A stretch of DNA of 21,540 nt from Ectocarpus siliculosus (lineage: Eukaryota > Sar > Phaeophyceae > Ectocarpales > Ectocarpaceae), in contig FN649736.1 in assembly GCA_000310025.1 (NCBI GenBank), positions 2,364,219-2,385,758 on the forward strand, read 5' to 3'. This document shows positions 1,121 to 21,540 of the stretch, piece by piece. The notes under the pieces were generated by a model that ran no database searches, had not been told where the DNA came from, and saw nothing but the letters and a program-made list of their open reading frames with translations. A program made the position numbers and the translations under genes. How positions within the stretch are numbered: position 1 is the stretch's first letter; every line of letters starts with the position of its first letter.

Positions 1121-3752
1121 GTGCGAGGAGTTGTTGATGTTTTGTTCGGTTTTGATCTCAGCCGGTTGCCAAATATTTCTACTAGACCGGCTGCTTTTCT
1201 AGATCTGCTGCTTTTGCAAGCCTGACGTTTTTCTGTATCAACGGCACGACGATGTTCGGCAACAAGGGATGGTTGATAAAGCTGGCAACGAGATTTTTCT
1301 AGCAGCAACAAAGTTGGTCTTCTCGCTGTTAAGAATCGCTTTTCGGTTTCCTGTTGGCCCATGATTGCCATGCGTACCACGTATTCACTCGGTGCAGTCT
1401 AGTGTGCAAACATTCGGGTGGTCGGCCTGGGTACGCGCAAGTAGGTGTAGGACACGTGCCGACACGTTTAGCACTCCTATACAGACGACAGAAACAACCA
1501 CCAGGACAACAGGATCAAATCGATAAATCAATAATAACGGCAAAACAACAACAAATACGGCAACAACAACAACAATTTTTTTACAAACGAACAGGAACAA
1601 CTAGGGGAATGCCTCCACGTGCTAGAGGGCCACACCGAGCGCATCACGGGGGTGGCGAGGCTGGACGGGTCCCGCCTGGCCACCAGCTCCGCGGACGGCA
1701 GCCTCCGGGTGTGGGACGTGTCGTCGGGGGAGACGCTGCACGACGTGCTGCTGCCCTCGCCGGCCTGCTGTCTCGGCGCCGCGGGTGAGCTACTCTGCTC
1801 TAGCTATCTCGAGACGGGTCTTGATTATTCTGTGACTCAAGGAGCTCAAGCATGACTGTAATAACAACTACCCGAGCATCACGATAGATCGTTGCGAATG
1901 AGTCACACAGAGGTCCAAAAGGCGTGCTCAAATGGTAGAAGAGGACACACGGCGCCCACCCACCACCACCCCACAGTCCCGAGCACTTTGTCAGCAGAAA
2001 TATCTCAAAATACACACATGGACGTCTCCTCGTTGCTGTGCCATCCTTGCCGCCGCGATACATGTGCGTGCACCTTTGCGATTGTGTGCGTACATGGACG
2101 ATTTTGGGGCATTTTATCTTCCAAGAGCCCGTCCTCGAGGAGGAGGAGGAGGTAAAAACAAAGCGTCAGACTACTCAAGTCACGTGAAGATTCTCCGACA
2201 GTCATTTGGTTTGTTTTTAGCTACTCGTACATAGTTGTAGATGGCGTTGGACGACAACACATAAAAAAATGGAAGGAGTCGAAGCGTGGCGCCACCGAGT
2301 GAGGGACCTTCCCTCCCGCTTGTGTCATATCGTCATATCCCCACCTGTGATGGCCTAGTTTCAGGTAACCACGCAGGCAGAATATTATGAGGGTGCGCGT
2401 GCACAATCTAAAATACCGCCGGCGATCTCGTTGCTCCCGGGCTTGCGAAAATTCTCGGAAACTTCTCGAGGCAGATCATTCCAACTTCACGAGAGGGGAG
2501 TAAGCAGGCGTGCTGACCCGCATCCGCGCCTCTCCCTGCAGAGGAGGGGATCAACCGACTAAACCTGCCGTAGGTTGCATAAAGTACCACTACCCCCTGG
2601 ACGACGTATTGCCGTAGCCGATAACTCTGCAGCACTAAGAGACTGTCTGTGCTGAGGATGGTGGCGTTGGAACCTTGACATGGATGGAGCTTTCCGAAAA
2701 CGTATCATGTTGGTGTGGATTGATGGAGCTTTCTAAAATGGGTCCAACGAGGAGGAGTGGTATCTTACGCAACAATTCGGCGATTACCTTCTATCGTCAT
2801 GGTCATATGCCGCCGCCACTGGGCACCCTCGTTGCCTTTCTTCTCATATACTTGTGTGTGTCTACATTCCACACGGCCCTCATGCCCGGTGCGTTTTCGC
2901 TCACACCCCGCCCCTCCCTCGTATCGGTGCCATGCCTACTGCTGTGCGGTAGAGGGTTACATGGTCACGGGTCTGACGGACGGGAGGGTGCTGGCGTGGG
3001 AGGCTAAGCGCCCGGAGCGCGCGCCGACGGAGATCCTGACGCTCGACGCTCACCGCGGGGCGGTCACGACGCTCAGCTTCCCCAAGCAGGTACACGTACT
3101 AGGTGGTGATGGGTGACTGAATTGGCACTCTGATGTGATACATAGTACTCCAAAGCAGACGCTCAGTGGACTGACCTCGTACTCTCTTGATGTGTGCTTC
3201 TTCGTAAGTACGTACCAGTCGTTCAGTTTCTCCAAGCAGGTACAGTACGTGGTGATGGGTGACAAACTTGGTGGTCTCTGTTCTCTCCTGTATGGTACAT
3301 AGTACTCCGTGACAAACGTTCCGCGTCCCCACGCAGTGAGTGGTGATAGGTGACTGACTTGGTCCTCTGATCATAAGTGGTACATACCTGGTAGTACTGG
3401 ACCAGACGCTCCGCTACCCCGAGCAGGTACAGCAGTAGGTGGTGATGGATGACTGGCTACATAGTACACGTGCCAGAAGCTTAGCTTCCCCACGCAGGTA
3501 GGTGCTGATGGGTGAGTGCCTTCGTACTCTCTTTGTATGGTGTTTTACACGCCAACCCGACGCACTTTTTTGGGGGAGGGTAGACTTTTGTGTTGCTTGC
3601 ACGAGCGAGCGACCCCCTACCACTGGGTTTGGGTGGAGCGGGTTGGGATGTGTGATGTCGCGCGGGATGGGCGTGTTGCGGCAAGGCATGCGCATTTGGC
3701 TCATTTTTTTTTTGTGTGTTGTGCTTCTCTTTCTCTCCCTCCCTCTCTCTCT

Positions 3753-3800
<48 letters not shown>

Positions 3801-5946
3801 ATCTCTCGTCGTCGCTGGCGCGCACGCGTGCACCTCTACTGCACACACCCGGCGAAGAACCTGACCCTCTTCTCTTGCGCCACTGCTGTGCCCCAACGAA
3901 TTGCCGCTTGTTGTGTACAGATAGCCTTGATTTACTTCCTTGGCGGCCTGTTATTCCTGACATTTGTACAATACTGCTGTTCCGACCAAAACCTTCAGTG
4001 ATATCGCTTCTTTCTGTTGACAGAATGTCTTTCTGACGTGGGGAGGGGACATGCGCTGTTGTTCCTGATGTTTTTACCGCTGTTTCGACTCCAAAACTTG
4101 AACCTGCTGTCATATTTTTGTTGTCTATACTTGCGACATTGTTTTTTTCGTTGGCAGGATGTCTTGCTGACGGGGGGGGGGGACGGCAGGGTCAAGTACT
4201 GGGATCTCAACCAGGGGGGGGCGGCCGAGGGGAACCGGTTCGAGATCGGCGGGGAAAGCTACACCCACGTCTTCCGGGTACGCGCGGATTTCGTGACTTG
4301 GTTGTGGTGGTCTCTCGGTACTTGGTCGAACGTGGCAGGAGCAGTGAATACTACTACGTGCAAAAAAAAAAAAAAAATAGAGATATGCCTTTTTTTCTGC
4401 AGGAAAACATGAAGTATTAATAGTTCATTGAGGTGAGTGTGCAGTATTCTTCGCGCTTGCAGGTCCGCACTGCTGTGATTGTACGATCTCGCTGTATTGT
4501 ACGGTCTCGCTGCGCCACGGCAGTATGCTTCGCGACGAAGTACGAGCACGCTGCATCGTTATCATGATGGTATGCTTGTGCAGGACGAAAAGGGTCACAC
4601 ACACAGCTGTCCGATGTGTTTCCCCTTCCGCTCTCTCTCTCTCGTCCGGCCGAAACGTAACACTCTCGTCTCAAACGGGTCACAACCATCGCCCGACCTC
4701 ATGCCACGCGCGTAGATAACCAACTCACGGCCTCAGTGCGCACCATGGTGTGTGTGTCGTACGTTCAGTAGCAGCATGACCATCGTGCTACCCCCAGATT
4801 TAGACGTCCTCCGAAAAACACGGCCACAATCATTCAAAAACCTCCACCCCCCAGAATATCTGTCGTTGATTTCTATTGACTTGCGGACCCCTCGGGGCCA
4901 GTTTTATTTGAGTGTACCTTTTTAGGGTAAGTTAACCTGTGACCACGGGAATCGACCGCGTCGAGTTTTGGATCAGTACGGACATACGAAGGTACTGGGT
5001 AGAGAGAGATCGGAACGGTTTTTAATGTGAAGACAACAACAACAACAACAACAACCCCCCGCGGTGATCGGTCCTGTGGGAACAACGCACCATCCTCTCG
5101 AGGACGCATGGTCAATGGTCTAACCGCTAAGGCATGCGAAACACGAGCACACACCCCACCACACCACCACCACCCCTTGTTTCGTGTTCTCCCTACGCAT
5201 GAAGGGTCACGCGGCACCCGTCACCGCGGTGCAATGTGACGAGCATCGAGTGGTGTCCGCGGCGACCGATGGCACGGTGTCGGTGTGGGACATCCGCAGC
5301 GGGCAGGAGCTGTTCCAGATCTACGGTCACGCGGACGGGGTTGGCTCCCTCCAGTTCGATAGGGAGCAGCTCGTGACTGACGGTGAACCGATTTTCGACA
5401 CACTGCTGTGTGCAGGCCGTGTTGTTGTTTGTGTTGTGTTCTTCGCATTAAACATCGCTGTAACACCCTTACCGGCCCACCTGATACGGAGCAAATAGTC
5501 TAGACCTTAAAAGAACGATGGCACACCTGTGGGTTCGCCCGCACATCTGCGCTGGGTCAAATCACTCACAGCTCTCATTATTATCCGCTTGTTTGTTTCA
5601 AGAGAAAAGTGTACCTTCCCCCACACACACTGCAGCAACACCAGCATCAGTTTCTCGAACAATTCTTGTATTTTTTTTTGTTTTTTCGTTCGTTCTTTCT
5701 CACGCTTCGCGAAAAAACATCGTAGGAACGGGAGAGACCTTGTACTTGCACGACTTCACGGGCAGAAGAGGAGCCCCCGCCGTGATGGGCTCGGACAACC
5801 CTTTCGGCGATGACGACGACGACGACGATAACGACGAAGGTAGTCAAAGTGGGTTTCGTATCGGCGGGGGGGACGGGGGACGGGGCCCGGGGCGAGGGGG
5901 GGGTGATGGTGTTGACGGCGGTAAAGGGGGTGGAGCAGAAGGCTAA
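1032..5946 (+). CDS. WD40-repeat protein, 3' part of the gene (six exons visible)
   Basis: Exons: 1032-1120, 1595-1784, 2953-3089, 4158-4277, 5205-5382 and 5726-5946 (end uncertain). Each boundary is GT-AG and all phases match (0, 1, 0, 0, 1), giving about 310 residues. The sequence is a run of WD40 blades: LVTGGSDKTVRV, LEGHTERITGV with SLRVWDVSSGETL, GLTDGRVLAWE, LTGGGDGRVKYWDL, GHAAPVTAVQ with GTVSVWDIRSGQEL, and IYGHADGVGSLQF, followed by an acidic tail (DNPFG then seven Asp). WD40 propellers are protein-interaction scaffolds; nothing here identifies the partner or complex. The entry phase of the first exon requires an upstream exon, and no initiator region is recognisable, so the protein start is missing. 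In the first visible blade the usual Trp after VRV is Gln. LINE debris lies in the intron before the fifth exon. Confidence 0.85.
1595..1784 (+). CDS. WD40 gene, visible exon 2
   Basis: The acceptor is GAACAG|GAACAA and the donor is GCGG|GTGAGC. It carries a complete blade: GECLHVLEGHTERITGVAR, then SSADGSLRVWDVSSGET. The exon is markedly more GC-rich than the CAA-rich intron before it. It leaves in phase 1, which pairs exactly with the next exon. Confidence 0.88.
1785..2952 (+). other. Intron of the WD40 gene, no further feature
   Basis: This is a long intron (1168 bp) with no recognisable repeat family or exon. Splicing from 1784 to 2953 restores the reading frame as LGAA-EGYMVTG. Open stretches inside it have no homology I recognise and intron-like composition. 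Confidence 0.7.
2953..3089 (+). CDS. WD40 gene, visible exon 3
   Basis: The acceptor is TGCGGTAG|AGGG and the donor is AAGCAG|GTACAC. It encodes GYMVTGLTDGRVLAWEAK followed by LTLDAHRGAVTTLSFPKQ. It enters in phase 1 and leaves in phase 0. The last ~25 exon bases together with the donor are the source of the degenerate repeats that fill the following intron. Confidence 0.88.
3066..3525 (+). repeat. Degenerate tandem repeat of an exon end plus 5' splice site
   Basis: The segment GACGCTCAGCTTCCCCAAGCAG followed by GTAC and GGTGGTGATGGGTGACTG recurs about five times with decay. Potential donors lie at 3090, 3240, 3336 (CA|GTGAGT), 3427 and 3498. The units also share TGGTACATAGTACTCC between the donor parts. 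Spacing shrinks from about 150 to 97, 90 and 71 bp. The first unit is the real exon end; the others are intronic. Confidence 0.8.
3724..3794. repeat. (CT)n microsatellite
   Basis: A CT/CCT-rich run, nearly pure CT from about 3760 to 3794, lies within the intron between WD40 exons 3 and 4. It gives Ser/Leu or Arg/Glu strings in translation that are not coding. Confidence 0.95.
4158..4277 (+). CDS. WD40 gene, visible exon 4
   Basis: The acceptor is TTGGCAG|GATG and the donor is TTCCGG|GTACGC. The exon has exactly 40 codons in phase 0 and encodes DVLLTGGGDGRVKYWDLNQG and then SYTHVFR. An 11-G run codes for the Gly cluster and is in frame as read; a one-base miscall there would break the gene. 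Confidence 0.88.
4278..5054 (+). other. Intron of the WD40 gene, no exon seen
   Basis: This is the intron upstream of the LINE remnant. It contains an A15 run near 4362-4376 and a CAA microsatellite at 5034-5053, but no convincing exon on either strand. Confidence 0.65.
5055..5177 (+). mobile_element. LINE 3' end, 5'-truncated, inside a WD40 intron
   Basis: The plus strand encodes GDRSCGNNAPSSRGRMVNGLTAK (split here: GDRSCGNNAPSSRGR then MVNGLTAKACETRA), matching the other copies. It ends in a C/A-rich tail, CACACCCCACCACACCACC and on to about 5176. The tail ends only ~28 bp before the acceptor of the next WD40 exon, in the same transcriptional orientation as the host gene. It is preceded by the CAA repeat. 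Confidence 0.85.
5205..5382 (+). CDS. WD40 gene, visible exon 5
   Basis: The acceptor is GCATGAAG|GGTCAC, preceded by the pyrimidine-rich TTGTTTCGTGTTCTCCCT, and the donor is GACG|GTGAAC. The exon enters in phase 0 and leaves in phase 1. It encodes one full blade, GHAAPVTAVQCDEHRVVSA then DGTVSVWDIRSGQELFQIYG, and the start of the next, HADGVGSLQFD. Confidence 0.9.
5726..5946 (+). CDS. WD40 gene, visible exon 6 (probably terminal)
   Basis: The acceptor is CATCGTAG|GAACGG in phase 1 and restores VTDGTGETLYLHDFTGRRG. It is followed by MGSDNPFG and a run of Asp. The frame then stays open through a Gly-rich stretch to a TAA-type stop region ending at 5946. A possible donor, GAAG|GTAGTC at 5840, would end coding at the acidic tail and imply another exon that I cannot identify. 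Coding up to 5839 is well supported; the Gly-rich end is not. Confidence 0.7.
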
Positions 5947-6807: not shown

Positions 6808-7742
6808 TCATGCGCGCCAGAACCGTTGCAGTTTGGTTCCCGCCCGTAGCGGCCGCGACACCACCAGCAGCTCCTCCTCTTCCCCCCCTTCCCTCCTCGC
6901 GGGAGAGGGGTGCTCTCCTTTCGCGGCGACCTCACCGGCCCCCCGTTGCTGCCGCTGTTCGGGTGGTGGCGGCTCTTGCTGTTCTTGGCGCTCCTGGGTT
7001 GTTGTTGTCGGTGTTGTGGGTGCGAGATGGAGCTCGTCCCACACCACCTCTCGAACCAAGCCCTGCTCCACGCAGGCCCGCTCGATCGTTTTCTCGGTCT
7101 CTGGGTCGTATCCGAAGCTCTGGGACATCAAGAACACGGGCGTGCCGTCAGCGCCGCCGCCGCCGCCGCCGCCGCTAGCAGACGAGCTTTCGTCGTCAAA
7201 CGGACCACCCTCACGTAATGGAGGCTTCGGCGGAGACAATACCGGCACTTCCTCCTCTGGAACGATGCTACCACTCCCGTCCCCCCCTGTCCCCGCTGCT
7301 TGTCGCCTCTCTACCGCCTCTTCCCCTTTGCCTGGCGCGGGTTCCCGTGGCGGCCTTGCCTCCCCTGCCCCCGTCTCTACCGCCCCTTCCGCGCAGAAGA
7401 CTTCGCCCCGTTTCTCCCTCGAAGGACAAGGGCAACAACGAGGACGGAGGAGCTCGCCGACTGTCAGAAAAAGGGGCTCCACCACCGACACCGAGTATAT
7501 CACGTCGCTCGCGATCACCAGATCGAAAAGCACGCCACCGCCACCACTGCTGTCACCATCATCACCATCGCTGCCGTCTTGTTCACTGCCATCCCCGCGT
7601 GCACCGTCGATACGTCCCCTGCTGAGCCCGGCCCCGCTCCCCCTCCCGGGGCCACTCCTACTTGTCGACCCCCCCACCTCCTCCGCAAGATTTCTTGTCC
7701 GGACGAGAGCTTCGTCACGCCTAGGTCGGGGCGTAGAGGAGG
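6808..7742 (-). CDS. Methyltransferase exon 4 (terminal)
   Basis: The acceptor chosen is CGTCGCAG at 7743, the only nearby AG that joins exon 3 in frame (phase 1). The alternative CCTAG at 7721 gives the wrong phase for DLVIASD. The exon holds FDLVIASDVIYSVSVVEPL, a Gly/Ser/Glu-rich insert, FLMSQSFGYDPETEKTIERA, VREVVWDELHLA, a second insert, and TKLQRFWRA before the stop at 6810-6808. The conserved C-terminal LQRFWR supports this as the natural end. Confidence 0.85.
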
Positions 7743-10700
7743 CTGCGACGCTCGAAAGCGCGTGCGCTAGGGAGGCGCGTTGGGCGTTTCCTGTGGGCGT
7801 CGGGGGTGGGGGGTAGGGGTACGCATGTTTTGCATGCCATAGCGGTTAGACCGTTGACCACGCGTCCTTGAGAAGACGGGAGCATTGTGTTCCCACAGGA
7901 CCGATCGCCGAGGGCCAATCGTTCCCTCCTACTGTGCCAAAGGTGGCTCAAAAGTGTTTCTCCCTAGGCTCGTCTATCCTATCGGTATCACCTCCAGTCT
8001 TTTCAGCCTACTTCCTATGCCCCGGTATAGCTACCGTCTTCTCCTGCCTATTCCATGCCTCAAACATCTCTCCGTACCTTTTTTATACTTTCCCCAGTTG
8101 AGCCATATACGTTTCTCTCTCCCTTTCGTAAAACGTGATCCCGGTCTTCGCACTCGGCCGCATTCAAATTTGAACTTGTGGTCGTCATCATCTACCTTCC
8201 TAAATCTTCGTCTACGTTCTCGGAGGTCAACGTGAAAAAATCCGTCCGGGTCAATTCTTGTTGACCCCAAGGGTCAGCCTAAGGCAGACAAGCGTGAACT
8301 ACAACAGGGGGGCGGGGGTTCACGTGATTTTCGTGCCCTAGTTGTGAGCCCATTGGCCACTCGTGCTCGAGAGTTGGCGTTGGGGGGAGGGGGGGGGGCG
8401 GGGGGGCGTGGGCGACGCAAACACCGTCCGCGCAATGGTGGTGGTGGTGGTGGTGGTGCAGACCAGAAAGAACCTCACAATGTACGCAACCGTAGAGCTC
8501 CATATTTGATCAGTGGTGGGGAGTCCAACAGGGAACTTATGATAGGTTGGGATTGTATTGATAAGCTTTTTATGCACTATTGCAAGATCCCCCTCCGGAT
8601 TGGGTCTCCACTGCTAACGACCACGCAACACAACTGTAGAACCTCACAATGTGCGCAACCGTAGCTCCATGTTTGATCAGTGGTGGGGAGTCCAACAGGG
8701 AACTTATGATAAGTTGGGATTGTATTGATAAGCTTTTTATGCACTATTGCAAGATCCCCCTCCGGATTGGGTCTCCACTGCTAACGACCACGCAACACAA
8801 ATGTACGACTGCTGCTATTGTGGGTTGAGTTCTTCCATATTGTGATAAATCGAACCCAAAACATAAATAACAAGAATTTGCGCATGACGAACATATCTGG
8901 TGTGGTGGCGTGTTCCGTGGTGGTGGTGGCGGCGGCGGGGTTGATCTGAGGACCACCGAAAACTGCCGTAGCGTGCTTCGAAGGAGGCGTTTTGATGTAT
9001 ACCGCATCATGCCATGATTTCGAAGAATTGGAGAGTGCCGCGGTTTGCGATCAAAGAGCATCGAGCGTGCCTCCTAGCTCAGGAAGTTCAGTCACGATGG
9101 CCGAGAACATGTACGTCCCCTCTCTATGAGCTCAGGGCATACGATGGGTTCCGTGCGCGTCCAACGGGAGTGGTGTTCACCTAACCCAACAACCTTCGAC
9201 GGGGGCAGGCAACCATCGACCGCAAAACGCGCCCCGTCTTCTTGGCTGCTCTCCTTCTTCTTACCGACGGTGCCCCACGAGAGCTGCACGCAACGCGACT
9301 TTGCTGCGGCTGCGCTCCCCCCCAACTCCGGCTGTTGCTGTTGCTCTTCGATGCTCTCTCTGATCATGTCCAACACGCCTGGGCACGTCAACGTGCACGC
9401 AGGGACACGGGACACAAAGAAGAACATGGCGAAGAAAGGGCGAGGAGGAGGTGGGGCGTATTCTTAATGTTCTTAAAAGTCATGCATGCCGAAGCGGTTA
9501 GACCATTGGCCACGCGTCCTCGAGAGGAGGAGGTGGGGGGGGGGGTGATGGCAAAAGCAAGAATGATAACGGAAGCGCGAGGGGGAAGCAGGTAGAGGTG
9601 GACGGACAGGAGAGCAGATAGAGATGTACAACAGGCGAGGTAGCAGGAAAGAGTCTCTCGGGGAAAGCAGGAGGCACATGGGCTTAGGAGGGAGGCAACA
9701 CGTGGGAAAATTTTCGTACGCCAACTGCCGTCGTCTCAGCCCCTGACCTTGCTCGGTACCGCAGCACAAAAAATCCAAAAAAATCGGGAACTGAGACGCG
9801 TCGACACTACCCCCCTTCCCGACGCATGCCTGGCTCTAGACCCAAAAACTCTTGCGGCCGGCTACCGCTTCCGATACAACTGTACATAAACACATCGGTC
9901 GCCATCCGAGGGTGGAAACTAATGGTCGGGTAACTAGACCTCCCCCACGCACCCGCGCCAACGACGCGCTCAGAGCATCCCCACGGCGCTCCGAGGCCGG
10001 TAGCGCAAGTTGCACGGTCTGCCTGCCTGCCTGCTTGTCTGCCTTGCCAAGCCCCGCCGTGTCCCGTCCTCGCTTTGTTGAACGCATATCTGGTACATAC
10101 CATGTACCACCCCGACGTATCAGCCTTCGCCTTGTGGACCGCATAGATGGTACACACCATGCACCGCCGGAGGGCACGTAGCGGCGCAAGACCACACTAC
10201 CCGCCGAAACAATCACAAGTACCTCCGCCCGCTCCCAAACATCCCGGCCTCCTCCTCCTCCTCCTCCTTCTCCCCGCTCCCCCGTCCCAAACCCACCACC
10301 CACCTGGGTCATGGTCCGTGAACACGACCGCCTTCGTGAGCGGTAGCTGCGCCGCGACTAGCCCCGCCAGGCCGCACCCTGCGCCCAGCTCCAGGCACCT
10401 GCCTCCGCGGGGCAGCGCCAGGCGGCGGTCTACGAGGTAGGCGGACAGCGCCGGAGCGGCCGGCCAGACGTAGTGACCGGACTGTTTGGGTGTGCGTGTG
10501 CGTGTGCGTATGCGTGTTTTGAATCAGAGAGCGGGCGTTTGCATAGGTCACCACCGATTAATAGGGACATGTGACGGGTGCTGAGGAAGGGTGGAAGGGA
10601 GGGGGGGTGTACTCATGTTTTGCATGCCTTAGGGGGTGAGGGTGAGGAACTAGAGCAGTATTGTCTATTCGCGGTTGTCGTTCGTCACACCAGCGGCCGA

Positions 10701-11484
10701 CAAAACGAAGCTTGACTACATGCAGTTTTCCTGCTGTCTTGCCGGTTTTCGTGTTTTTTGCTGGCGGCCTTTGTTTCGCACAGGAAATGGCCTACGGGTT
10801 GTACAGCAGTACATCACTTGTACAGCAATAGTAAAAGGACCTGTTGTATGCATACCAAGGGAGAGTTGACATGCGCTCTTGTCTGGAGATTGATCGCTGA
10901 ACGTCCGTGTTTTCGTAACGGCCGCCAAAAACAAGGGGGGGGGGGGGGGGGGGGGGGAAACCCCCCCCCAAAGGGGAAAAACCTTCCCCAATTTTCCAAC
11001 CCCCCCCCCCTTTTGTTTGGAAAAAAAAAACCCCCCCCCCCCCCCCCCAAAACAAAAGAAGCCCCCTCGCAACTCCCGGGGGCGTCTCTAACCAACCGAA
11101 AGGGAAAGGAAATTTCCCCAAAACGAAAAAACCCCCCGGTTTTTGGGGGGGGGNNNNNNNNNNNNNNNNNNNNNNNNNNNNNNNNNNNNNNNNNNNNNNN
11201 NNNNNNNNNNNNNNNNNNNNNNNNNNNNNNNNNNNNNNNNNNNNNNNNNNNNNGGGGGGGGGGGGGTGACAACCATCGACGAAGGGAGACAACCATCGAC
11301 GATTCTCACACACCCGCCCCCTATTGCTTGAGCAGAAGAAACCTCCACGCCCACACCCCAAGCACAACGTACGCACCTGCACAGCTCCCGGGTCGTCATC
11401 TACCAACCGGACGGCGACGGAGATGTCGCCGAACCGGAACGACCGCCGCGTCTTCGGCAGCGCGTTGTCGAACATGAACCCCAC
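6808..11484 (-). CDS. Class I SAM-dependent methyltransferase, Methyltransf_16 (METTL21/FAM86-like) family
   Basis: Exons on the minus strand: 11484-11377, 10481-10304, 9378-9265 and 7742-6808, with phases 0, 1, 1 joining without a stop. From the ATG at 11475-11473 the product is 441 residues. SAM-binding motif I, LELGAGCGLAG, is at about residues 63-73; the acidic motif TDHDP is at 88-92; and the family's post-II motif FDLVIASDVIYS is at 203-214, with DVIY at 210-213. HYVWPAAPALSAYL before motif I matches the conserved VWPAA block. Members of this family methylate lysines (sometimes other residues) on proteins such as chaperones and translation factors; the substrate cannot be told here. It is longer than the usual 220-330 residues because of three low-complexity insertions (about 132-200, 233-329 and 372-425). 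The first exon has an acceptor-like 5' border, so a 5' UTR exon or additional N-terminal exon may lie upstream. Confidence 0.9.
7806..8255 (-). mobile_element. LINE 3' fragment inside a methyltransferase intron
   Basis: On the minus strand the fragment runs from RRRRFRKVDDDDHKFKFECG (near 8225-8165) through degraded coding sequence to LSHLWHSRRERLALGDRSCG, NGLTAMACKT, a stop-like end and the tail CCCCTACCCCCCACCCCCG. It parallels the copy at 12975-13521 along its whole length, with frameshifts. It is in the same orientation as its host gene and its tail ends ~64 bp before the exon 4 acceptor. Confidence 0.85.
8380..8458. repeat. G-rich and (GGT)n simple sequence
   Basis: A G-rich stretch with runs of up to ten G is followed by (GTG)n at about 8440-8458. 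It is intronic relative to the methyltransferase gene and is the type of tract at which the sequence quality fails elsewhere in this window. Confidence 0.8.
8469..8804. repeat. Tandem duplication, about 169-bp unit, two copies
   Basis: Copies at 8469-8637 and 8638-8804 both begin AGAACCTCACAATGT and end CCACGCAACACAA. They differ by a 2-base AG indel (GTAGAGCTCC versus GTAGCTCC) and a few substitutions. They lie in the methyltransferase intron between exons 3 and 4. Confidence 0.92.
9265..9378 (-). CDS. Methyltransferase exon 3
   Basis: The acceptor is GTGCCCAG|GCGTG and the donor is GTCG|GTAAGAAG, a near-ideal 5' splice site. Phase 1 on both sides. It encodes GVLDMIRESIEE directly after TDHDP, as expected for the segment following the acidic motif, then a Gln/Ala-rich loop and RCVQLSWGT, the strand that precedes motif II. 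Confidence 0.9.
9474..9536 (-). mobile_element. LINE 3' end, short remnant
   Basis: On the minus strand it reads SSRGRVANGLTASACMT, the same terminal peptide as the other copies, followed by a short tail leading to CGCCCCACCTCC. It lies in the methyltransferase intron, 96 bp before exon 3. Confidence 0.75.
10304..10481 (-). CDS. Methyltransferase exon 2 (SAM-binding core)
   Basis: The acceptor is CCAAACAG|TCCGG and the donor is CCAG|GTGGGTGG. It enters in phase 0 and leaves in phase 1. It encodes SGHYVWPAAPALSAYLVDRR, then RCLELGAGCGLAGLVAAQL and AVVFTDHDP. This one exon contains the glycine-rich SAM loop and the acidic residue expected to contact the ribose hydroxyls. Confidence 0.93.
10600..10642 (-). 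mobile_element. LINE 3' terminus, minimal remnant
   Basis: Only the last ~40 bp match on the minus strand: AAGGCATGCAAAACATGAGT followed by ACACCCCCCCTCCC. This is the coding end (KACKT and TGA stop) plus the C-rich tail. It lies in the intron between methyltransferase exons 1 and 2. Confidence 0.7.
10935..11153. other. Poly-G run followed by unreliable, degraded sequence
   Basis: A 23-G run (10935-10957) is followed by sequence made almost wholly of homopolymer blocks. This block sequence aligns in order with 11267-11465 at a near-constant offset of about 312 bases. For example AACTCCCGGG at 11071 faces AGCTCCCGGG at 11383, and TCTAACCAACCG faces TCTACCAACCG. It should not be annotated as genes. 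Confidence 0.9.
11154..11253. other. Assembly gap of exactly 100 N
   Basis: The gap is bordered by a G run on each side (left end of the degraded block; 13 G at 11254-11266). The round length indicates a placeholder rather than a measured distance. The duplicated flanks suggest that the two contigs actually overlap. Confidence 0.97.
11377..11484 (-). CDS. Methyltransferase exon 1 (first visible)
   Basis: The donor is GTGCAG|GTGCGTAC at 11376. The 5' border is either the acceptor-like TTGGCGCAG at 11485 or further upstream if the ATG at 11475-11473 is used. It encodes MFDNALPKTRRSFRFGDISV and VRLVDDDPGAVQ, the N-terminal beta strands that precede the VWPAA block. A degraded second version of this exon lies at about 11065-11153 and should be ignored. 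Confidence 0.82.
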
Positions 11485-18262: not shown

Positions 18263-20484
18263 CTGGTGGTGGTGGCGGTGGTGGTGGTGGTGGGCATGGC
18301 GGGGAGGGGGGAGAGGGTTCGCTGGGGGTGTCAAACAGGTGTGTGTATGTGTGTAAGCTATTCCAGATACGTGAGGCAGGTGAAACAGCGACTCGTACCT
18401 CTGGAACGGCGGAGGGAGGGAGGAAAGAGTTCGCCAGGGGTGGCAAACAGGCGCGACAAACAGGTGTGTCGGCCTTTTTGGATGCTCTTTTTAATACGTC
18501 GGAGGGCAGATGAAACAAGTGACTCGTGCCTGGCGCGGCGGCGGAAGGAGAGGCTTCGCCCTGGTGTGGGTGACAAAGAGGGTGAAAGCCTACTGTTGTG
18601 CGTCAGGCAGATGAAGCGGTATCTCGCGGGGGCACTCGCGAGTTGTGGGAGAGAGCATGGCAGCGTAGACTGCTAACGCTCGAATGATAATACAGGGCAG
18701 TCGCAGGTGGTACGGCAACAAGAGAAAGAAAGTTCACAGAATAGGCAAGCCGCCGTCGGCGCACGAAGGGGAAGAAAGCAATGGACAACGGCTTGAACAA
18801 CCATGTACTCTGTGCAGGGCCGTGTGATACACCAGCAACACCGTTTCGTCTCTATACCCAGCCTGTGGCCGATTCACAGCATCACGGCGGAAAAAGAAAC
18901 ACACGGCGGAGAAACAAACCACAACAAATAATCAATCTACCACCAACACCAAGGAGAAATTTTCCGTAAACCTTATGCAAACCTGGCCCAGACACAACTA
19001 CGACAACGACGACAACAACAACAGCAGCAGCAGCTGCTGCAGCAAAATCCGCACGTCATGAACAACACCAACCTTCCTTGCTCACCTTGCACGGGGGCAC
19101 CGCCCTGCCCATGGGGGGTTCCGACTCCTTGCACTCCTCCCACCCACCGTCCGCATCGGGGCTAGGCTTGGCCCACAGGGGGCTACGCGATTCCTTCGTC
19201 TCCTTCTCCTTCTCCTTCTCCTGAAAGCGTCAAAGAAACGGAATTTTGAGCGTGGACACGAGTGTTTCGCGCTCTATTCCGGCGTGTTCGACAATACCGT
19301 GCGGTACGACGAGAGCAAAGCAATCGCGATTGTTCCACCATGCACCGATAGCAACGAGAACATATCCCCTCTGGTCTCCCCCCCCCCCGATGTCTACCTC
19401 CCTCACCTCTTTTGCGAGACCCCCTCCCCCGTCCCCGCCCCCCTTGCTGGAGGCGCCGTCTCCCTTCTCCTTACCCTCCTCCGCAGCAGCAGCCTTGCCG
19501 GCACAAGTTTCGGTGCCGTTACTCGCGGCTCCCGCTCCCGCCGACGCCGAAGGCGCCGCGCCCTCATCCTTGGCGTTGGGTCCGAAGAGCATCTTGGGCG
19601 TCGCCCGAGAGGGCGGCGAGCTGTCCCCCGCGGTAGCTCCCTGTTGGAATCAATTCATTGTTTGGTTTTGTTAGAGCATCATCTCAGGGGTATTGTTGTT
19701 GTTACACAGCAACAGCAGTCCCATGTTGGTATTGGAATATTGTTGCTGGTTGTTTTGTTGGTTCTGTCAGAGCATCACCTTCGGGATATTGTTGTTACAC
19801 GGCAACAACAGCAGTCCCATGTTGGTGTTGGAATCATTGTTGTTTGGTCAGGGCATCATCGTCAGGGCATCATCGCGGGGGGTTCTTTGTTGTCACACAG
19901 CGACAGCAGTCCCCATGTTGGTATTGGAATTATTTGTTGCCGGTTGTTTCTGTTGGCTTGGTCAGAGCACCCGGGGTTCCTGCGTTGTTACACGGCAACA
20001 GCAGTCTTAAAGTGACGCTGCAGCATCATCCCCATGCGCATCAAACGATCGTTTTCTTTTTTCCTCTCCTGTACTTCATTTTCTCGCACTGCTGTGCCTG
20101 TCGGTGTTGGTGCTTTTCATCAACATCATCATCATCACCTTCACCTTGGCCGTTTGCAGGAAGCCCAACAGGGAGAGTTGCCCCGGGACAGGGGCGGTCT
20201 TCGACTTGTCCCCGGCAGCCTTTTTCCCCCGTCATGATCAAGAAGAAGCAAAAGGGTGAAACAACGAATTGGGGGGGCGGGAAAGGAAGAGAGACAGAGA
20301 GACAGAGAGAGCGCGCCACGGAGTGGTGTGACGGGGGTGAGCGTGGAGTAAAGGGGCAAAGGGCGGAAAGAAAGACACCCACACACACAGAGGGGGAGAG
20401 AGAGGCAGACAGAGAGAGGGAGGGACACAGAGAGAAATGAGAAGAGAGAGAGGGAGAGACAGACAGACAGACAGACAGACAGAG

Positions 20485-20545
<61 letters not shown>

Positions 20546-21011
20546 GGCACATGTCCGGCAGCAGTGAGCTGCAGTAGTTTACTCTCTGCTGAAGACAAAC
20601 AGAAGGCACAGCCATACACACTACATTAAAACAACGGGCGGTAGAAAGATGTCACGCGTAACACACCTCCTCCTCGTCCCTCTCTCGAGCCAAAAAAAAA
20701 CAGGAGCGAAAAGACGAGCCAACCAAAAACAACTGCACCACCGCACCGATCGCCCAGCCCACCTTGGGTCCGCTCCCGGGCGTGGTGTTGACGCCGTCAT
20801 CATCATCAACGGCAGAAGAAGCGGATTTTTCGGCGGCCTTCTCCGCCTTGAGGGCGGCGGCGGCCGCGGCGACCTCAGCCTGGGAGGGCTTGAGCTCGAC
20901 AGCGGAGGTCTCGACCCCTAGCCGCTCGATCACCTCGGGGTTGACGACGAAGACGGTTCCGCCGTGGAGGCTTCGCTCGCGGGTGGCCACGTCCTTCACC
21001 TTCTGGTGGAC
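17735..21011 (-). CDS. Ala/Gly/Ser-rich, mostly disordered protein of unknown function (3' five exons)
   Basis: Minus-strand exons: 21011-20763, 20219-20145, 19640-19407, 19220-19086 and 18262-17735. Every boundary is GT-AG, every intron is phase 0, and the joined frame is open for 406 residues to the TAG at 17737-17735. The most protein-like part is the first exon (HGGTVFVVNPEVIERLGVE, then an Ala/Glu/Lys helix and an acidic DDDD patch). A second candidate ordered segment is RPVLYLGSGTPPPPRVILLD in the last exon. The rest is low complexity (Ala, Gly, Ser, Lys/Glu runs). I recognise no catalytic motif or family and assign no function. The 5' part lies beyond 21011, past a stretch of unreliable sequence. 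Confidence 0.75.
18310..18665. repeat. Degenerate tandem repeat, about 110-125 bp unit, three copies
   Basis: Three diverged units start near 18314 (GAGGGTTCGCTGGGGGTGTC), 18424 (AGAGTTCGCCAGGGGTGGC) and 18550 (GAGGCTTCGCCCTGGTGTG). Each continues with a GAGGCAGGTGAAAC or GGGCAGATGAAAC motif and a CTCGTRCCT or equivalent. They fill the start of the intron before the terminal exon of the unknown gene. Confidence 0.7.
19086..19220 (-). CDS. Unknown gene, visible exon 4
   Basis: The acceptor is GCTTTCAG|GAGAAG and the donor is TGCAAG|GTGAGC, both strong. 45 codons, phase 0. It begins with Glu-Lys repeats (EKEKEKETKE) and continues SRSPLWAKPSPDADGGWEEC and PPMGRAVPPCK. This is one of the better supported exons of the gene. 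Confidence 0.8.
19407..19640 (-). CDS. Unknown gene, visible exon 3
   Basis: The acceptor is TTCCAACAG|GGAGCT and the donor is AAAGAG|GTGAGGG. 78 codons, phase 0. It encodes TPKMLFGPNAKDEGAAPS followed by Ala/Gly and Lys/Glu-rich low complexity. The charged, Gly-rich composition indicates disorder. Confidence 0.78.
19671..20012. repeat. Intronic minisatellite, about 95-110 bp unit, roughly four copies
   Basis: Each unit has AGAGCATCAYC, then TTGTTGTTACACRGCAACA, then GCAGTCCCATGTTGGTATTG and a GTTGTTTTGTTGG stretch. Starts are near 19671, 19768, 19849 and 19960, the last truncated. The TTGTTGTTACAC-GCAACAACA core is itself a small inverted repeat. It occupies most of the intron between exons 3 and 2 of the unknown gene. 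Confidence 0.85.
20145..20219 (-). CDS. Unknown gene, visible exon 2
   Basis: The acceptor is GGGAAAAAG|GCTGCC and the donor is GCCAAG|GTGAAGG. 25 codons, phase 0: AAGDKSKTAPVPGQLSLLGF then LQTAK. It is short and the acceptor is A-rich rather than pyrimidine-rich, but phase and composition fit. Confidence 0.65.
20280..20548. repeat. (GA)n / (GACA)n microsatellite tract
   Basis: A long purine-rich tract has a (CAGA)n core at about 20458-20482 followed by nearly pure (GA)n up to 20541. It lies in the intron between exons 1 and 2 of the unknown gene and produces spurious Ser/Leu open frames on the minus strand. Confidence 0.95.
20763..21011 (-). CDS. Unknown gene, visible exon 1
   Basis: The acceptor is CTCTCGCAG|GTCCAC and the donor is CCCAAG|GTGGGC. 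83 codons, phase 0. It encodes VHQKVKDVATRERSLHGGTV, FVVNPEVIERLGVETSAVEL, an Ala-rich helix and VDDDDGVNTTPGSGPK. It has high third-position GC. This part looks most like a folded domain, but I cannot place it in a family. Confidence 0.8.
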
Positions 21012-21069: not shown

Positions 21070-21540
21070 GGGGGGGGGGGGGGGGGGGGGGCCCAAAAAA
21101 GGGGGCCCCAAAAAAAAAAAAGCCCAAAGAACCAACGGGCAAATTTTTTTTTTTGGGGGGCCCAAAAAAACCCCGGGGTTTCTAACCCCCAGCTTTTTCA
21201 AAAAGGGGCCCCCCAAAAGGGGGGGGGGGCCCCAACCCCCCTTTTTTAAAAAAACCCCCTTGGGCCTAAAAAAAAACCCAAAAAAAAAAAACCCCCCCCC
21301 CCCCAAAAAAAGGGGCCCCCCCCCCCCCCACCCAAAAAAACAACAAACCAAGGAAACCCCCCAAAAAAAAACCCCCCCCCAAAAAAGGGCCAATTTCCCC
21401 CCCCAAAAAAAAAAAAAACCCCGGGGCCCAAAAAAATTTTCCCCCCCCAAACCCCTGTTTTTAAAAAATTCCCAAAAAAAACCAAAAAAAACCCCCCCCC
21501 CAAAAAGACAAAGAAACCCCGGAATCTTTTTAAAATAGGG
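21070..21540. other. Poly-G run followed by unreliable homopolymer-block sequence
   Basis: After 22 G (21070-21091) the sequence turns into alternating blocks of A, C, G and T, like the block at 10958-11153. It continues to the window edge. Open frames in it (Pro/Lys or Gly/Phe-rich) are artefacts. The true sequence behind it is not recoverable from this window. Confidence 0.85.

Follow-up and report, generated by a model that had tools for sequence, protein, structure and literature searches.

Homotype false duplications are described as arising with sequence read errors, and a gap between the two copies is given as a mark that the duplication is false (PMC9516828). In the description of PBJelly, a negative gap is one where the mate-pair distance says that adjacent contigs overlap and the sequences do not, and low-quality flanking sequence is named as a contributor to gap formation (PMC3504050). 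At the level of the traces, Sanger stutter is attributed to polymerase slippage, which is worse in homopolymers and leads to misplaced peaks and wrong calls (PMC10643650). For Ectocarpus, version V1 is described as 1561 scaffolds based on Sanger data, and the rescaffolding paper judged its Sanger contigs 'unlikely to contain misassemblies' (PMC7386250); version V2 is given as 176.99 Mb in 28 pseudo-chromosomes with 17.97 Mb unplaced and 11,588 gaps (PMC11541908). Among the papers listed in our literature searches, no title or abstract opening describes a poly-G false-gap artefact in Ectocarpus, which is weak evidence of absence.

The site described here lies in a window of 21,540 nucleotides, the whole stretch that was analyzed (C11:2364219-2385758, in a genome of 189.5 Mb and 492 contigs), and is centered on a 100-N gap between two contigs. 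Its layout, together with the neighboring gene and a second stretch of similar appearance, is as follows.

10935-10957, plus strand: poly-G tract of 23 Gs (G23) as read on the left contig; presumed point of phase loss
10958-11153, plus strand: 11267 to about 11465 in a blurred, phase-lost reading; very probably no separate locus
11154-11253: 100-N gap, most likely inserted at a default size where the contigs in fact overlap
11254-11266, plus strand: poly-G tract of 13 Gs (G13), very probably the same tract as G23; the right contig begins here
11267-11465, plus strand: clean copy of the overlapped sequence
11377-11484, minus strand: real exon of a putative methyltransferase (VGFMFDNALPKTRRSFRFGDISVAVRLVDDDPGAVQ), CAG before and GTGCGT after; no Pfam match alone
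10304-10481, minus strand: next exon of the putative methyltransferase (SGHYVWPAAPALSAYL...LELGAGCGLAG...), PF10294 E=3e-9 (10302-10523)
6811-7677, minus strand: downstream coding segment of the putative methyltransferase; weak PF10294, E=0.0075, below the curated cut-off
21070-21540, plus strand: second blurred stretch, after a run of 22 Gs (G22) and into a 2318-N gap (L002 1271-1760)

We place the probability at about 95% that the 100-N gap is false and that its left flank is a degraded reading of its right flank, produced after phase was lost in the poly-G tract. Past the G runs, the best local alignment pairs 10971-11146 with 11282-11457 at an offset of 311, which moves to 312 and back through single-base indels. 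The alignment of the flanks forms a dovetail, beginning at base 1 of the right contig and ending at most 7 bases from the end of the left contig; the adjacent contigs thus overlap in sequence, as the negative-gap description has it, and none of 1000 controls reached the end-anchored score. If the tract has 23 Gs, the assembled locus exceeds its real length by about 309 bp, plus or minus the true tract length. The original prediction had proposed this reading, with a read that lost phase after the poly-G tract and was left unmerged with the clean contig, and it has stood up well: the neighbor-copy test, the sister loci and the excess of gaps near long G runs, all described below, support it. 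Its coordinates for the two collinear copies (10958-11153 and 11267-11465) and their offset of 310-312 were correct within a few bases, the pairwise alignment of the flanks giving 311-312. Each copy does follow a G run, G23 before the blurred copy and G13 before the clean one, and its excess of about 310 bp is here put at 309 bp assuming G23.

How could one stretch come to be read twice? The end of the left contig may consist of one or a few capillary (Sanger) reads across the long G run. Polymerase slippage on the G run would turn the downstream read into a mix of products 1-2 bases out of phase, which the base caller would render as smeared blocks of whichever base dominates locally. The right contig, read cleanly from the opposite side, would halt in the same G run, and the assembler would fail to recognize the blurred end as the start of that contig. 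Mate pairs would then order the contigs, the computed gap would be negative, and a default 100 N would be inserted between two readings of one stretch.

The blur itself is readily seen in the lengths of homopolymer runs, which average 3.16 bases in the left copy against 1.32 in the clean one and 1.39 across the window, so that the earlier description of clean bases smeared into homopolymer blocks is borne out. As in stutter, the degradation starts at a long homopolymer, which in the window is G23. A detector based on run length, set by eye and applied to 194 kb of non-N sequence, picked out 23 blurred stretches. Thirteen of these are at least 100 bp long, and 11 of the 13 span from a G/C tract to the edge of a gap, as against 1/10 of those below 100 bp; the other short detector matches probably represent simple sequence. 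Loci chosen for their G runs account for eight of the 13 long stretches; in the window or in sequence sampled without such selection, all five long stretches span from tract to gap. The two exceptions lie at C1:356827 and C1:630920. At one locus (L022) the blur sits on the right contig, showing that either contig can carry it, which is expected if reads from each side stumble on the tract. The second blurred stretch of the window (21070-21540) gave no alignment above controls with the right flank of its 2318-N gap and is probably a lone bad reading; not every blur, therefore, is a false duplicate. Open reading frames of 191 aa and 168 aa are listed within this second stretch, whose sequence is probably unreliable and could give false ORFs.

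Long G/C tracts and gaps are also associated beyond the blurred stretches. A genome search with G21 returned 8217 overlapping matches; among the matches listed, the interval from 60 kb to 2.9 Mb of C1 contains 29 tracts of at least 21 Gs or Cs. A gap lies within 300 bp of 23 of these 29, the margins of 300 bp having been covered except for at most 40 bases, whereas the same holds for 681 of 20148 sampled positions (3.4%). Six pairs of tracts flank one gap each, and counted by distinct site the figure is 17/23 with a gap within 300 bp, again on C1 and among the matches listed.

These observations bear on the rival that survives best, namely that the blur reflects a general loss of quality at read ends rather than slippage on the G run, an account under which the false gap and the overlap would be unaffected. 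Blurred stretches do lie mostly at contig ends, and the two exceptions among the 13 long ones do not run from tract to gap. The other 11, however, begin at a G/C tract, on either contig, a pattern that is partly one of ascertainment given the eight loci chosen for G runs, and we regard general read-end decay as an unlikely cause of the blur.

The letters of the blurred copy point to the clean copy as their source. Of its 61 mismatches in the window, 59 equal the preceding or following clean base, where 34.6 would be expected and none of 2000 simulations gave a count that high. Pooled over eight overlapping loci, 424/495 mismatches are neighbor-copied against 237 expected; at the weakest of these (L055), 29/51 are, a count reached in 11 of 2000 simulations. 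A blur kernel derived from five other loci peaks at 0, then at -1 and +1, and predicts which wrong letter was called in 77% of 60 window mismatches, with chance at about 1/3. Its gain over all window letters is small: plain identity accounts for 68% of them (n=189) and the kernel for 75%. The called bases are, in other words, a local mixture of shifted true bases, as in homopolymer stutter, and the pattern is what a trace of products 1-2 bases out of phase would give.

Two collinear and similar copies about 310 bp apart would also result if some 200 bp, most of the exon included, had truly been duplicated in tandem and the left copy had since decayed by mutation. When clean copies were substituted and realigned in 300 trials, however, the neighbor-copied fraction averaged 0.39 and never exceeded 0.60, far from the 59/61 observed; the expectation that a true duplication would lack the base-block signature is thereby upheld. 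An origin as an ordinary duplicate is rejected because the mismatches are neighbor-copied and not ordinary substitutions. A duplication, moreover, does not account for a left copy that spans from G run to contig end, for another copy that opens at base 1 of the next contig, or for the same pattern at unrelated loci, and we give it very little credence. Just as improbable in our view is the placement of two alleles (haplotypes) as adjacent contigs. Such placement is an established source of false duplication in diploid assemblies (PMC2864568, PMC9516828), but allelic differences would not form neighbor-copied blocks, and if the genome is that of Ectocarpus, it has been described as haploid (PMC7386250).

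The strength of the overlap was judged against controls of two kinds. For flanks of 600 bases, the alignment scores 72 and has identical letters in 141 of 206 columns, G runs counted, and 17 control right flanks score 30 or less. The end-anchored score after the G run exceeds those of all 1000 random window segments, drawn so as to exclude the finding itself and the blurred stretch beyond 20900. The runner-up local match in the window is the other blurred stretch, which scores 45, while the best grid segment over the clean copy reaches 54. That such a stretch comes second shows that homopolymer-rich composition alone does raise scores, and two blurred sequences can reach a local score of up to 49.5 through composition (L002 against control flanks); the effect does not reach the level of the true pair. 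Chance alignment of low-complexity sequence, for which that runner-up score would speak, is the least credible of the alternatives given the anchored result and the score of 72 against controls of at most 30. True duplication, allelic copies and a chance low-complexity match were all rejected on the overlap, neighbor-copy and anchored tests. In the genome search, 10620-10934 and 11254-11470 each match only themselves at E<=0.001.

The artefact is not a one-off but recurs elsewhere in the assembly. In 20 stretches (193 kb) near the window and on C1, picked without regard to gaps, joining pieces by hand leaves nine gaps, of which eight measure 788 to about 28,200 (28222) N and one 100 N; a length of 100 N amid otherwise varied gap sizes fits a default size. 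This sole 100-N gap of the sample (L016) has a G run, a blurred left end and a right contig that carries the same sequence mostly clean, with an overlap that takes in bases preceding the G run. An overlap scoring higher than all of its controls was found at 7/11 of the 100-N gaps (the window, L016, L022, L038, L039, L052 and L053), 9 of these 11 gaps having been located through G runs, so that the fraction is no genome-wide rate, and at 0/5 of the gaps of more than 700 N with both flanks compared. Gaps with a missing or too short flank were excluded, which removed 9 of 20 rows from one comparison and 4 of 21 from that with 600-base flanks.

The strength of these cases varies. The overlap at L039 extends over 512 alignment columns. 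At L052 the local score is barely above that of the control (34 against 30.5), with 0/1000 controls as high in the anchored test, and a 57-N gap (L055) has a weaker overlap at 43.5 against a control maximum of 36.5. Among the remaining 100-N gaps, L050 offers nine bases for comparison after the tract, TCTCCCCAT against TGTACTCAT, with 24/1000 controls as high, too short a match to call; at L056 and L058 the break falls inside the G run, which makes them uninformative. At L054 there is no overlap: the left end after the G run is unblurred and unrelated to the right flank, and 372/1000 controls score as high. A gap of 100 N, therefore, is not always an overlap.

What does the artefact interrupt? 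On the minus strand, the lysine methyltransferase family PF10294 matches 10302-10523 with 37.3 bits against a curated Pfam cut-off of 21. When the exons at 11377-11484 and 10304-10481 are joined, the best solved relative is METTL21A (4lec, E=1.3e-4), with all matched residues in the second exon, and by this similarity the gene is probably a METTL21-like methyltransferase. The exon at 11377-11484 ends in CAG, followed by GTGCGT, and the left contig closes at 11153 with a blurred image of part of this exon; the G run, the blurred copy and the gap would all sit in the presumed intron between the two exons. Both minus-strand peptides quoted in the original prediction are present. The prediction had also called this segment methyltransferase exon 1; the exon stands but may not be the first, since a possible acceptor CAG precedes it and upstream exons may exist.

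Other features of the window were noted in passing. A short dispersed element, frequently with a G run at its head, occurs near 500-600, 7806-7910, 9440-9540 and 10602-10640 and at many other loci. Exact genome copies number 487 for the type A core (TCATAGTCGTGCATGCCGTAGTCGTTAGACCATTGACCTCGCATCC), 90 for an extended form that carries TAC and eight Gs immediately ahead, and 224 for the type B core, to which the window copies belong. Contigs break at or near the G head of the element at L016, L044, L050 and L052. By eye the element appears tRNA-like. A tRNA scan of the window found none. Among the papers listed in a literature search for SINEs and Ectocarpus, none mentions Ectocarpus. The window also has a WD40-repeat gene of several exons (1592-5390, plus strand), with PF00400 over the cut-off in 1592-1783 and 5190-5390 and weak in 2940-3095 and 4152-4286; WD40 and PF10294 were the only protein families found in the window. 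At about 8465-8805 there are, by eye, two near-identical tandem copies of about 170 bp, both clean, unlike the copies at the gap. Long CT or GA simple repeats lie at 3720-3800 and about 20400-20600 (by eye; also seen as low-complexity ORFs). In the genome at large, the EsV-1-7 cysteine motif (PF19114), which is expanded in brown algae, gave at least 150 matches among 880 candidates, and none in 14 control genomes.

The false gap is biologically ordinary; as a systematic assembly error, it is mildly useful. If the assembly is the same as that of PMC7386250, its contig ends hold local errors beside long G runs. Flanks that are false duplicates add extra sequence, may yield false exons or frameshifted models, and split genes at needless gaps. 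The neighbor-copy test works without reads and could be applied to other old Sanger assemblies to locate sites of this kind. Whether the error has a wider reach is, to us, an evenly balanced question: a large share of the assembly's 100-N gaps may be overlaps hidden by poly-G stutter, many of them closable from the assembly alone by a blur-modeling aligner; and as the long G runs to which they would be due frequently form the 5' head of a short dispersed element present in hundreds of copies, much of the fragmentation may go back to a single repeat family.

Finally, we would place the site among the systems described above. As in homotype false duplication (PMC9516828), read errors would have produced a second copy that went unrecognized, and the two copies stand on one scaffold with a gap separating them, here the 100 N at 11154-11253. 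The neighbor-copy signature is indirect evidence of such read error. That class is defined by read depth and k-mers, whereas here the duplication is deduced from sequence alone and poly-G phase loss is the proposed cause. The overlap also differs in scale from the negative gaps of PBJelly, whose six Sanger-validated examples measure 1-43 bp (PMC3504050), as against about 200 bp in the window and the 512 columns of L039. Stutter, for its part, is described in traces (PMC10643650), and what we see is only its likely imprint in an assembled genome. Taken together, the testable features of each are present, and the case appears to be of a known kind, a homotype false duplication at a negative gap.
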